Source of the DNA: a virus
Virus record (IMG/VR): IMGVR_UViG_3300049595_003941
Location: 1-29,136 of that record
Length of the DNA stretch: 29,136 nt
Direction: 5' to 3' (one strand)
Below are positions 17,428-28,579 of the stretch, one piece after another. The translations under genes were made by a program, and so were the position numbers. Numbering within the stretch: position 1 is the first letter of the stretch; every line of letters begins with the position of its first letter. The notes beneath the pieces were generated by a model, which had not been told where the DNA came from, made no database searches, and was given only the letters and a program-made list of their open reading frames with translations.

Positions 17428-19406
17428 CAGACCCCCATCGCCATGCGCGGCGACCACCCGCCCGCGCTTGCCGCCTTCTGTGCCTTTGCCACGCTCTTGC
17501 CGATTTCGTACGGGGTTCCGAGCGGGGCGTTGAAGTTGATTACAGTCGTTGCGCCGCCACCGCCTCCGCCGCCACCGCCGCCGCCGCCGCCCATGCTCGG
17601 CGTTGCAGCGAAGCCGCCTGCCGACCCTGCAGACGGTGCCGACGCGCCGCCGCCGATAACACCGCCCGCGGCCGCAGCATACAACGCCGCCGCACCTGTT
17701 GCAGCGATGCCTTGTGGGATCTGACCGGTCGCAAAGTAGATCGCTGCTTGGGCCGCAGACGTTAGTGCCAAGATAGCTGCTTTCTCTTTCTCGCCTTCAA
17801 CCACGGCAGACGCAACGGCGCCAACGGATCCGACAATCGCTTCGGCTCCGACGCCTTCGCCTTTCCACTGTGCCGCGAGCTTTTGGCTTTGCGATACAAC
17901 CTCGCCGAGCGCGCGCCCGATGCCGTTCTCGCCCGACAATGCAGCGACTGCAGGTCCGACCAAATTGTTGACGGACTCCCACGTGGCCCGCTGGGTATCG
18001 GCAAGTTCTCGGTTCTTTTGCTTCAACTTTTCGATGCGGTCTTGTTCGGCTTTGGCAACCGATTGTGCCTGGGCCTCTCGTTCTTTTGCGATGCGGTCGT
18101 TTTCATCGGCAAGCGCCTTCTGCACCGTCGCGACTTCGTTAGCCGTCTGGAGCTCCAGCGCCGCAAGCTTCTTGACCCGCGCAACCTCGGTAAGTTCGGA
18201 CGTCTGCGACAACACCTCGCGCTCGTTGGCAGCCTTGCGGCGGATTTCTGCGATCGCCAGCTCGGCACGCTCGACACCCTTTGCCGCTGCAATCTTTGCA
18301 GCCGCGAGCTCCTGCTCTGCTTGTTCTTCGCCCTTTAGGAACTTCTCAACGGTCTCCAACGTTTCTTTGCGGCGGTCCTCTTCGGCCTTCTTCTCTTCTT
18401 CGCGGCGCCTGCGGGTCTCTGCCGCGGCCTTGTCGGCGGCTGCCCGTTGCTTTGCAAGGCGAGCTTCGCGCAGGGCTTGGCCTGCCGCAGCGTCTGCCCG
18501 ATCTTCCGACTCCAGTGCAATGCGCTGCTTGATCAAATCCTGTCGGCGTTTCTCGGTGTCGAGCTCGCGTTGACCTGTGTTGACCCGCGCTGTGGCGAGG
18601 TCCGCAAGTTGGCTTTCCACCTTTGCCAAATCCTCGCCGCGCAATCTTGACCTGGCGTTGAGCCTTTCTCGCTGGTCTTGGATAGCGTTGATCTGCGCTT
18701 CCCGCTCCAAACGCTGGGTGCTGAAACGCACGGAAACGGCTTCGGCAGCGGCCAGTCGGTCGGCACGTTGCTTTGCCTGTTCCAACTGCTGCGCGCCGAT
18801 TTCGAGATTGCGGCGAAGTTGCGTCTCTTCTCGCTGCAGCGTTGCAAGCTGTTCTTCCTCTTCGTCCTTGATCGCTTCCTGTTGCTTGATTTGGTTATCT
18901 AGGATCTTTTGCGCAGCCTTCTGGTTTTCGGCGATCTGCTCGTCGACTGTCAGTTTCTTGCTTACGACACCCAGAATGTCCGCGTTGACGCCAAGGATTT
19001 TGGCCGTTGCCTCTTGGCTTTCTTTGGCGTTCTCAAGTTCTTTGATGCGCGCGTCGATAATCGCCTCGCGCGCCTTCTTCGCTTCGCTGTAGAAATACGC
19101 AGCCGCGGCACCAGCAGCGGCCAACGCAATGCCGACGGGACCAAACGCGGGCCCAAACCCTTTGATCGTGGCTTCGATGCCGCCCGCCACATCCAGCAAA
19201 CCTCGCATCTGGTCGCCGAGCAAATCGCCCGCGATGTCTTTGACGCCGCGCAAGCCCTGCTCGATGTCTCCCGATTTCTCGGCCACATCTTTGGCGGATA
19301 CGGCCAGACCGCGAAACGAGCCCTTGACGTCCTCGACGACTTTGGTGGCGTTGTCCTGCCCGCGTAAGGAGATGACCTGTTCGATGCGACCCGCAGCCAC
19401 GCTCAC
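17427..19406 (-). CDS. Tape measure protein
   Basis: This 659-residue protein sets tail length and is ejected with the DNA. It starts at GTG 19406 in a GTGA overlap with the end of the tail chaperone extension, the usual gene order. The N-terminus (residues 1-70) has the amphipathic pattern of tape measures. A hydrophobic segment follows at about 82-107 (FGPVGIALAAAGAAAAY). Long coiled coils rich in lysine, glutamate, alanine and arginine run from about 110 to 480. Near the C-terminus a run of 13 glycines (17553-17591) forms a hinge before the last 45 residues. It is short for a tape measure. At about 0.15 nm per residue the tail would be near 100 nm. Confidence 0.85.
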   Translation of the reverse strand: MSVAAGRIEQVISLRGQDNATKVVEDVKGSFRGLAVSAKDVAEKSGDIEQGLRGVKDIAGDLLGDQMRGLLDVAGGIEATIKGFGPAFGPVGIALAAAGAAAAYFYSEAKKAREAIIDARIKELENAKESQEATAKILGVNADILGVVSKKLTVDEQIAENQKAAQKILDNQIKQQEAIKDEEEEQLATLQREETQLRRNLEIGAQQLEQAKQRADRLAAAEAVSVRFSTQRLEREAQINAIQDQRERLNARSRLRGEDLAKVESQLADLATARVNTGQRELDTEKRRQDLIKQRIALESEDRADAAAGQALREARLAKQRAAADKAAAETRRRREEEKKAEEDRRKETLETVEKFLKGEEQAEQELAAAKIAAAKGVERAELAIAEIRRKAANEREVLSQTSELTEVARVKKLAALELQTANEVATVQKALADENDRIAKEREAQAQSVAKAEQDRIEKLKQKNRELADTQRATWESVNNLVGPAVAALSGENGIGRALGEVVSQSQKLAAQWKGEGVGAEAIVGSVGAVASAVVEGEKEKAAILALTSAAQAAIYFATGQIPQGIAATGAAALYAAAAGGVIGGGASAPSAGSAGGFAATPSMGGGGGGGGGGGGGATTVINFNAPLGTPYEIGKSVAKAQKAASAGGWSPRMAMGV

Positions 19407-19735
19407 CCCCTGCCGTGTTCGCGCAACATCACGACACCATGCACGGCCCAGGCTGCGTACCTGTCAGGCCAACCTGCGAGCGGTGCAACCTCGGACAGTC
19501 TAGCAAGGTTACGCAAGCTTTGCACCTGCGGACTTTCCCACAGGCACAGCGGGCAGTGCGACCACGCCAATTCCGGGACGTCGGTATCGGGCATGCCGTG
19601 CGGTTTGCCCGTGCATCCCAACACGCTGCGGATGATGCCTGCGCGGCCCTGCAACCGCAGGAGTTTTGGCAATGCTGAGATGATGGTTTGAGGCTGGCCG
19701 CCGTGGCTTACTTGCCGTCCGTCGGCCCCTGCAAG
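19403..19735 (-). CDS. Frameshift extension of the tail assembly chaperone (GT-like)
   Basis: This frame has no start codon with a ribosome site. It lies in the -1 frame relative to the gene at 19708-20007 and is entered after the slippery heptamer GGGAAAC (19741-19735). Slipping there joins 91 residues of the first frame to 110 residues of this one, starting LAGADGRQVSHGG, for a product of about 201 residues. The extension has a CPLC pair and ends REHGRG, with a GTGA overlap into the tape measure. In lambda the equivalent gpGT recruits the tape measure and the tail tube protein. The same role is expected here. Confidence 0.8.
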   Translation of the reverse strand, partial: LAGADGRQVSHGGQPQTIISALPKLLRLQGRAGIIRSVLGCTGKPHGMPDTDVPELAWSHCPLCLWESPQVQSLRNLARLSEVAPLAGWPDRYAAWAVHGVVMLREHGRG

Positions 19736-20007
19736 TTTCCCGCTGTGGCAGCCCAGATCGCGCGGTAGAGTGGGAGCACGTACAACACCGACGGGCAGCC
19801 GAGGAATGCGTCCTTGCCTGCGGGACAATCGACGAGCCCGCGCGCGAGCGTCTGGCGGATGTTTTCGGTGGTGTCGTCCACGGCGTAGATTGCCTGGCAC
19901 TCGAAGTAATCAAGGCTCTGGATCGTCCAATCGCCCGCAACGGACGGGACGAACTCGCCTTCGACAAAGGCAACGCGAAAGGGTTGGTGCGCAAGAATAG
20001 ACTGCAT
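19708..20007 (-). CDS. Tail assembly chaperone (G-like)
   Basis: This 99-residue protein starts at ATG 20007 behind a TGGAG-type site. It is mixed alpha/beta (AFVEGEFVPSVAGDWTIQS, then DDTTENIRQTLARGLVD) and has no membrane segment. It sits between the tail tube gene and the tape measure, the classical position of chaperone G, and ends shortly after a perfect G-GGA-AAC slippery site read in the right frame. It should coat the tape measure before tube polymerisation. The sequence itself is not a clear family match, so the call rests on position and the frameshift. Confidence 0.8.
   Translation of the reverse strand: MQSILAHQPFRVAFVEGEFVPSVAGDWTIQSLDYFECQAIYAVDDTTENIRQTLARGLVDCPAGKDAFLGCPSVLYVLPLYRAIWAATAGNLQGPTDGK
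19735..19741 (-). promoter_or_regulatory. Programmed -1 frameshift slippery site GGGAAAC
   Basis: On the minus strand the heptamer GGGAAAC occupies 19741-19735 and is read as G GGA AAC in the upstream frame, the exact X XXY YYZ arrangement. The stop of the upstream frame lies nine codons later (19710-19708). Directly after the site CTTGC and GCAAG (about 19735-19731 and 19715-19711) can pair, a possible stimulatory stem. The downstream frame is in the -1 register and stays open to 19403. Confidence 0.85.
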
Positions 20008-20094: not shown

Positions 20095-21432
20095 CTATCC
20101 CACGCCCATGCGGAAGATCGAGTCCAGCGGGCTGTCGGTGGTGGTCTCGGTGTGGATGGCGGTGTCGCCGGTGTAGTTGGTCGCCTCGACGTCGAGCTTG
20201 TATGCGAGGAACTCGCCGCGCTTCTCGGTCGCAACCGCGGTGAAGTATGCGGCCGGGATCAGGAACGCCCACGCGCGGCCGACCTTGCTGCCGACGTAGC
20301 ACCCGATGGAGGTGGTAACGCCGCGTTCAAAGAACGACTGCCACTGATGGCTGCCCACGTTGCCCGCGTTTCCGGCGCTGTCATACACGGTGTCAGCGGT
20401 GTCGTGCAGCACCTGCACGGATGCACGGATCCGCGGGTTGCGGTAGGCAACGGCCGAGATGCCCTGCGACGCAGCGTGGCACACGATGTCGACAACCTCG
20501 ATCGCGTAGTCCAGCGTGCAAGACTCCATGCCGCACTTCTGCGACCCAGCCAGCGACGCGTAGCCGTTGACGCTGCCGACGATTTGCGGCACGCGGTCGA
20601 AAGCGGCAGGGACAACCAAACCGCCCGCGGTCTTGTCCATCGCAAAATCGTAGAATTTGCCGTTGATGGTGACCGTCGGCACCTCGCCGCTGTTCCAAGT
20701 GACTTGGAAGCCCTCGACCACAAAGTCCTGCATAATGTACGCCAGAGTCGCGTCTTGACCCGTGAATTTGATCGTCATCGGGATCTGGCTGTAAGCCGCG
20801 GCCGACAGCCAACCCGTGGCGGTGCCGTAGTTGTCGGCGGTGTTGCTGTTGACTGCGTTCTTCGACGCCTCGAACAGCGTGACCACGTTGCCCGCGGCCG
20901 ACTTTGCAAAGCCAAGCTGCAGGGTGGTCGATGTCGGCGACTCGGCCGTCAGCACAAGATCGCCCGCATCGACGTCCGCAAACGCACCAGGCGCATCGTA
21001 GGTGATCGCGGTCGTCGTCGCCGACGCCACGCCCGAGGCTTGGTACGTGCTGTTGTTCATGTGCGCCCCGTTCCAAAAGTTGGCGGCGTTGGCAACCGCG
21101 GCAACGTTGCTGCCGAGCGCGTTGGCAACAAGGCACATCCAAGGAGGGATCACGCCTGCGCTGCCAGGGTTCTCAAGCGTCGGATCGTATCCGGACTTCA
21201 ACCCCTCCAGCGGGATCTTGAAACCGAACGTGCCGCTGCGGCGACCGATGACGCGCTCGGGAGCGGCGCCGATCTGGCCGGTCAGCAAGGCGAGCTCGGT
21301 GACCGCGGTGTCGAACGAGAACGACGGCGCCTCGCACTTGACCGTGCGATAGTCCGCGCCCGTCATATTCGGGTTGCCGAAGCCCGAGATCTGCGGCGCA
21401 AGCGAAACACTGTAATCATTCCACGTAGCCAC
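20095..21432 (-). CDS. Major tail tube protein
   Basis: This 445-residue protein probably forms the tail tube. It starts at GTG 21432 behind AGGGGG. The N-terminus (MATWNDYSVSLAPQISGF) leads into a long beta-rich protein with FGFKIPLEGLKSGYDPTLENPG, AYIMQDFVVEGFQVTWNSGEVPTVTINGKF-type strands (about 225-260) and a C-terminal EKRGEFLAYKLDVEATNYTG region. The strand pattern of a helical-tube fold, its size, the neighbours (tail terminator-like gene before, chaperone after) and the hairpin that follows all support a highly expressed tube protein. At 445 residues it is longer than the simplest tube proteins and may carry an added Ig-like domain. Confidence 0.75.
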   Translation of the reverse strand: MATWNDYSVSLAPQISGFGNPNMTGADYRTVKCEAPSFSFDTAVTELALLTGQIGAAPERVIGRRSGTFGFKIPLEGLKSGYDPTLENPGSAGVIPPWMCLVANALGSNVAAVANAANFWNGAHMNNSTYQASGVASATTTAITYDAPGAFADVDAGDLVLTAESPTSTTLQLGFAKSAAGNVVTLFEASKNAVNSNTADNYGTATGWLSAAAYSQIPMTIKFTGQDATLAYIMQDFVVEGFQVTWNSGEVPTVTINGKFYDFAMDKTAGGLVVPAAFDRVPQIVGSVNGYASLAGSQKCGMESCTLDYAIEVVDIVCHAASQGISAVAYRNPRIRASVQVLHDTADTVYDSAGNAGNVGSHQWQSFFERGVTTSIGCYVGSKVGRAWAFLIPAAYFTAVATEKRGEFLAYKLDVEATNYTGDTAIHTETTTDSPLDSIFRMGVG

Positions 21433-27157: not shown

Positions 27158-28579
27158 TCAATGCACCGACCGCGACGACCACCCCGGCCGCGATGCTTCG
27201 GGCGGACGGTCGGCCGTTTGCCGCTGCTGCAACCGCTTGCCGCCGTGCAGGTCGGTGAAGTCTGCCGACGCCATTACCGCGTAACGCAGCGCGTCAACAG
27301 CGTGATCGTGAATGTTGTCTTTGCGCGGCCTGTTTGTCGGCTGGCCGTCGTTGTCGAGGTAGTACGTGTACCCGCGCAGCGCCGGCACAATGCCAGCCGT
27401 CGGCCCCTGCACCGTCTGGGACAGCGAGTGCGAAAACACAAGCGCGGGCTCGCCGTCCAACGGATCCATCATATCCCGCATGCACTCCAGACCGCGCGTA
27501 ACCTGCTGCTCTTCGCGCGACTCCATCCAGCGAACTTGAGTCGAACGCCACCGCGCTTGCAGGTCTTGGTTTTCGACAGGTGCCGCACGGTCGGCGCCGA
27601 TACACCGCGGCGGCGAACCGCCGTGCGACAGCATCCACTTTTGCAGGCGGTCTTGGAAATGGCCCCGCGGCATGCCGTCGCAAACGAGCTCGTCGGCGAC
27701 AACCCATTGCCCGTCGGGTCGCACCTGCGCCATGACCGCGACGTGGTGGTCCTGCCCGCCCCAGTCGACACCGTACACGCGCGGCAGCGTGAGATGCTCC
27801 CGCCAGCTCCATTCAACCAAATGCCGCGACTCGAGCGACAGCACCGTATGCAGCGGCCGCAAAACCTTGCCTTCGACTTCTTGCTGATACCGACGGCGAG
27901 ACATCGCCGACAAGCTGTCGAAGAAGTGTTGCGGCAGGTAGGGGTTGTCGAACGAGGTCGCCGAGGTGATGCGATACGCGTCCCACGGTGCCGTGGTCGT
28001 GCCGCGGCCTTTGGCTTCTAGATAGCTGCGCTGGGCCTCGACAAACTTGCGGGTGATGCCGCGCATGCCGTTGGGCGATGTGGCGACAAGGAACCCGGGA
28101 CATGGACCGTGGCCGCGCAGACGTCCCGTGATAACAGTCCAAATCTCTTCGGGGTCTGCTTCGCTCCATTCCACTTCGTCGGCTGCCGCCCAGGTCAGCG
28201 TGAGACCGCGTAGTTTGGAAATGCGGTTGTACGGGCGGAACCAGATCACCGAGTCGTTCAACAACCGCAGGCAAGCGTTTCCCTTGTCGTAGTCTTTGAT
28301 CCAGTTGACCTTTGACTGGTCCTGCATTTCTTGCAGGCGGTCAAACAGGTTTGGCAAAAGCACGGTGCGCAAGTCGATCTCGGTACGGCCGAGCAGCGCA
28401 CCGACCGACCCAGGGTTGCGCAACGCTCGGACGATTGCCGCGCACGTCAACGCATGCGACTTGCCCGAACCGACACCGCCCAGGAACAGTTGAAACAGAC
28501 TGTCGCCGAAGATGAAATCGGCCTGCTTGTCGTACGGCTTCCATGCCTGCGACAGGTCAAGTGCTACTTGCACGGCCAC
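27158..28579 (-). CDS. terL: Terminase large subunit
   Basis: This 473-residue protein is the packaging motor that pumps DNA into the head and cuts it. The ATPase shows Walker A GGVGSGKS (residues 34-41) and Walker B LTWAAADE with Asp134 and Glu135. The nuclease half has VYGVDWGGQDHHVAV at about residues 265-280 and, near the C-terminus, HDHAVDALRYAVMA, which carries the last catalytic aspartate of the RNase H-like nuclease. Both halves look intact. It starts at GTG 28579, ten bases after the small subunit stop. The packaging type (cos or headful) cannot be told from the sequence alone. Confidence 0.92.
   Translation of the reverse strand: MAVQVALDLSQAWKPYDKQADFIFGDSLFQLFLGGVGSGKSHALTCAAIVRALRNPGSVGALLGRTEIDLRTVLLPNLFDRLQEMQDQSKVNWIKDYDKGNACLRLLNDSVIWFRPYNRISKLRGLTLTWAAADEVEWSEADPEEIWTVITGRLRGHGPCPGFLVATSPNGMRGITRKFVEAQRSYLEAKGRGTTTAPWDAYRITSATSFDNPYLPQHFFDSLSAMSRRRYQQEVEGKVLRPLHTVLSLESRHLVEWSWREHLTLPRVYGVDWGGQDHHVAVMAQVRPDGQWVVADELVCDGMPRGHFQDRLQKWMLSHGGSPPRCIGADRAAPVENQDLQARWRSTQVRWMESREEQQVTRGLECMRDMMDPLDGEPALVFSHSLSQTVQGPTAGIVPALRGYTYYLDNDGQPTNRPRKDNIHDHAVDALRYAVMASADFTDLHGGKRLQQRQTADRPPEASRPGWSSRSVH

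Follow-up and report, generated by a model that had tools for sequence, protein, structure and literature searches.

A gene on the minus strand of a viral DNA of 29,136 nucleotides, which was analysed as a whole and is called the window here, very probably encodes the tail assembly chaperone of a long-tailed phage, with programmed -1 ribosomal frameshifting of the lambda G/GT type as its mode of expression. As far as sequence can tell, the switch between coding frames takes place at a conserved in-register heptamer. We infer slippage itself, its efficiency and the roles of the products as chaperones, the latter roles and the G/GT mechanism because of the gene architecture and by analogy with the reviewed lambda system.

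Gene layout and coding frames

The features of the locus are the following.

20095..21432, minus strand: candidate tail tube protein, 445 aa; upstream conservation in L023, L107, and L110
19708..20007, minus strand: short form, 99 aa, candidate tail assembly chaperone (G-like); ORF, substitution phases, and homologues in six other lineages
19735..19741, minus strand: slippery heptamer G-GGA-AAC, in register; same heptamer and register at the L023, L107, L110, L117, and L118 junctions
19681..19734, minus strand: predicted hairpin region, a possible stimulator, spanning the 0-frame TAA at 19710-19708; RNA folding, z -1.0 to -1.7
19403..19741, minus strand: -1 frame extension, putative C-terminal domain of the 201-aa fusion (T-like); translation, substitution phases, and 35-51% identity in L023, L107, and L110
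17427..19406, minus strand: candidate tape measure protein, 659 aa; position, length, and Ala/Glu/Gln-rich composition

According to the ORF list and translation, the 99-codon gene starts with ATG at 20007 and ends with TAA at 19710-19708. The original prediction had placed G-GGA-AAC at 19741-19735 in the correct frame of this gene, and the heptamer is indeed there, in register with the ATG. Codon 89 ends with G19741, which gives the register required for tandem -1 slippage. The stop of the short form lies where it had been predicted, nine codons past the slip codon AAC. The -1 frame, entered at GGG-AAA, runs without a stop until TGA at 19405-19403, as had been proposed, and the fusion, expected to have about 201 residues, has exactly 201. 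Its junction reads AATAGN followed by LAGADGR. The predicted tryptic peptides are AIWAATAGNLAGADGR for the fusion junction and AIWAATAGNLQGPTDGK for the short form. The GTG of the candidate tape measure gene overlaps the stop codon of the fusion. This gene is the next long ORF and resembles a tape measure gene in position, length, and composition, in agreement with the predicted place of the pair before the tape measure.

In the proposed mechanism, most ribosomes would stop at 19708 and produce the 99-aa short form. A fraction of ribosomes, at the point where tRNA-Gly occupies GGA and tRNA-Asn occupies AAC, would slip back by one base onto GGG-AAA. Reading would then resume at CTT in the -1 frame and continue to 19403, yielding the 201-aa fusion. 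On the model of lambda gpG/gpGT, binding to the tape measure protein would fall to the short form and recruitment of tail tube subunits to the C-terminal domain of the fusion.

Substitutions were compared among near relatives, which are near-identical contigs (L002-L005) with other sample identifiers and provide three distinct sequences of the region. Before the heptamer, 22 of the 23 variable sites fall on third codon positions in the 0 frame. After it, third positions of the -1 frame account for 12 of 14, and all 14 leave the -1-frame protein unchanged. Since the phase of the substitutions changes here from 0 to -1, both frames are translated and under selection, and the changeover lies at the heptamer or close by. 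Judged by these phases, both frames are coding. No variable sites are found among the near relatives at gene positions 261-339 (79 nt, counting the ATG as 0), a stretch that contains the heptamer and the doubly coded region, nor within the hairpin region 19681..19734.

The window contains 3 copies of GGGAAAC vs 3.5 expected, and a registered heptamer lands in the overlap in 7% of synonymous shuffles. On these counts, the heptamer by itself is weak evidence, and its significance comes from conservation. GGA is the rarest glycine codon (4-8%) in the four genomes measured, and even where Gly-Asn is fixed, GGA-AAC would arise by chance with a probability of 3-7% in each lineage. A second in-register GGGAAAC at 28277-28283, near codon 99 of the terminase large subunit gene, is probably due to chance.

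Conservation and possible turnover of the slip site

Single-protein scans of viral contigs returned almost solely near-identical contigs, and the divergent relatives were reached via TerL and tube alignments. Conservation of the heptamer in relatives, which had been suggested as a check, was found. The corresponding junctions of five divergent relatives (L023, L107, L110, L117, and L118) contain GGGAAAC in register. L023 is a viral contig whose TerL, tube, and C-terminal part are 59%, 47%, and 51% identical to those of the window. L110 is also a viral contig, L107 is a contig of a deltaproteobacterial MAG, and L117 and L118 come from genomes of the class of that MAG. In L023, L107, and L110, the upstream part of the protein is 27-36% identical to the window and the downstream part 35-51%. 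The 0-frame stop lies 0-3 codons past the heptamer in all five, and the residues coded right after the heptamer (GKLA/GKP) align among relatives. In L023, the 0-frame stop directly follows the heptamer and a -1-frame stop lies two codons upstream. Because these stops flank the heptamer, a shift is possible only inside 13 nt that include it.

Two more distant relatives, L111 and L120, carry C-CCT-TTR in register, four sense codons ahead of the 0-frame stop. The frameshift arrangement is thus conserved with GGGAAAC in five relatives and with CCCTTTR in two more. XXXYYYZ is absent at the corresponding junction in L119, L121, L122, L123, and L108. The first four of these have C-CCY-AYG at a spacing matching the L111/L120 site, and L108 has C-CCT-ACC immediately before its 0-frame stop, so that C-CCY-AYS is common to all five where L111 and L120 carry CCCTTTR. 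The 0-frame stops are at 1433 in L121, 1484 in L122, 1424 in L123, and 3867 in L108, and any -1 shift in L122 and L123 is confined to 37 nt. The junction sequence is CCCTACG in L121 and CCCCACG in L122. The gene pair keeps its -1 relation in all five. The original prediction had named relatives without a slippery heptamer and with two separate, well-started frames as evidence against it; these five are without XXXYYYZ but also without separate well-started frames.

In C-CCY-AYS, re-pairing is open to the P-site tRNA-Pro alone (CCY to CCC), which makes a single-tRNA slip possible. L108, L119, and L121-L123 may use such a non-canonical slip or another mechanism. We tentatively suggest one homologous chaperone family with slip-site turnover between GGGAAAC, CCCTTTR, and C-CCY-AYS, the last perhaps a non-canonical single-tRNA -1 slip, although this is a doubtful reading. 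Most annotated frameshift overlaps in one phage set are reported to be without XXXYYY (PMC10885494), and a missing canonical heptamer is therefore not strange in itself. Site turnover is the sole unusual element of the locus.

L121, L122, and L123 are all from genome G038, which belongs to the class of G001, and represent three loci of the chaperone family in one genome. The C-terminal domain is found in six of the 52 genomes searched in the class of G001. When 379 genomes drawn from the phylum were searched, these six turned up again and no others. These six genomes hint at the host group.

RNA structure, start codons and alternative explanations

A stem of CTTGC and GCAAG beginning at the site had been predicted. 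Both words exist, at 19735-19731 and 19715-19711, but their pairing probability is about 0 in a 75-nt context, and this stem was discarded as the preferred structure. A different stem, GGGGCCG.../...CGGCC..CCTC, is predicted instead and begins a few nucleotides downstream of the site. Taking the best of several folding lengths, the predicted downstream hairpins of L107, L110, and L118 stand out as strong (best z -3.2 to -4.0). Those of L023, L117, and the window are weak, and in the window z is a modest -1.0 to -1.7 over 45-60 nt. A hairpin common to L107, L110, and L118 was also rejected; the predicted stems pair in different registers, and no covariation is claimed. RNA structure may act as a stimulator here.

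One alternative is that the locus holds two separate genes, the second frame having a start of its own or being reached through termination-reinitiation where the short form stops, with no frameshift. The -1 frame does have a GTG at 19900, upstream of the heptamer within the overlap, so the claim that this frame has no start of its own was too strong in its literal form. In L107 and L118, moreover, a GTG overlaps or adjoins the TGA of the short form. However, no -1-frame start is conserved in position among the divergent relatives compared, and none preceded by a Shine-Dalgarno sequence was found among the GGGAAAC lineages tested; what the relatives keep is the heptamer. GTG 19900 was rejected as a start because L023 closes the same frame by its stop two codons before the heptamer, which excludes upstream starts. 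The first start past the slip in the window is a TTG, 23 codons on and without a Shine-Dalgarno sequence, and the GKLA/GKP residues that align across relatives are coded directly past the heptamer. Substitution phases, protein conservation, and the distribution of starts thus describe the overlapping -1 frame as a conserved extension that lacks a usable start, which is the part of the claim that stands, and two separate genes are very improbable. Transcriptional slippage is likewise judged unlikely, since the site is without a long homopolymer run.

A frameshift mutation or an assembly error splitting one ordinary gene might be suspected, as the window is one metagenome-derived virus record. 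The same structure is present in contigs with other sample identifiers, however, and divergent relatives have their two frames in an identical -1 relation at this heptamer, making such an artefact extremely improbable. The frameshift may also be real with a product other than a chaperone, such as a structural protein of the tail that has an alternative C-terminal domain. Neither half matches a family, and the C-terminal domain has no fold match and two cysteines (C43 and C63) conserved in nine relatives. Against this stand the position of the gene between tube-like and tape-measure-like genes, the usual place of chaperones, and the two top-ranking PDB matches for the short form, which, though weak, are to the HK97 tail chaperone. 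We consider a non-chaperone product unlikely. Reading the pair as a tail chaperone with a -1 frameshift, as originally predicted, is supported by the conserved in-register GGGAAAC together with this position.

Comparison with known tail chaperones and phages

Tail assembly chaperones are usually encoded directly before the tape measure and after the tube. The order of tube-like, chaperone, and tape-measure-like genes is shared by the window, L023, L107, and L110. The tube-like gene is 47% identical to that of the window in L023 and 41% in L107, and L110 also has a tube upstream. The tube and tape measure identities were assigned from position, size, and composition, not from strong profile matches: the candidate tape measure has no profile match above E 0.007, and the candidate tail tube has no strong one, while the L110 tube gives a weak tail match. 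Pfam and PHROG searches gave no match to either half in the window or relatives (best E about 0.04, unrelated families), including no significant profile match to a named tail chaperone family.

Structure models were made of the two halves, each folded separately. The short-form AlphaFold model has a mean pLDDT of 78 with a shallow alignment, and the model of the C-terminal domain has a mean pLDDT of 81. A fold search with the latter gave no match. The cysteines C43 and C63 of this domain are conserved in all nine aligned sequences (window and relatives). Some relatives add CxC or CxxC-like cysteines, a possible metal site.

GenBank phages were searched at the DNA and protein level with the chaperone region, tape measure protein, tube, portal, capsid, and an 842-aa protein, and none of these gave a match. 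TerL alone matched GenBank phages, mostly at 21-26% identity; likewise, tblastn of six proteins or gene products against 50,697 GenBank phage records gave relatives for TerL only (about 21-26% identity). By these comparisons, the window is a poorly sampled phage lineage. A lineage with almost no recognisable genes would now be placed among the tailed phages using G/GT-type frameshifting. The gene model is also corrected to one predicted 201-aa fusion instead of a misstarted second ORF. In addition, the homologous junctions form a natural set for studying the evolution of -1 slip sites, including sites without a canonical heptamer.

The slippery heptamer of lambda G/GT is GGGAAAG. The window differs from lambda gpG/gpGT in its GGGAAAC heptamer and in a C-terminal domain with conserved cysteines, and its proteins have no detectable sequence similarity to the lambda proteins in the searches run. 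The top two PDB matches of the short-form model, which was built from a shallow alignment, are to the HK97 tail assembly chaperone (PDB 2OB9), but at 8% identity, E 0.93, and a TM-score of 0.43 (range 0.38-0.43) the likeness is suggestive only. G_GGA_AAC, identical to the site of the window, has been reported as the g-t shift site of the haloarchaeal virus HCTV-1 (PMC5009743). The locus is a new, well-conserved example of a widespread and well-known phage mechanism.
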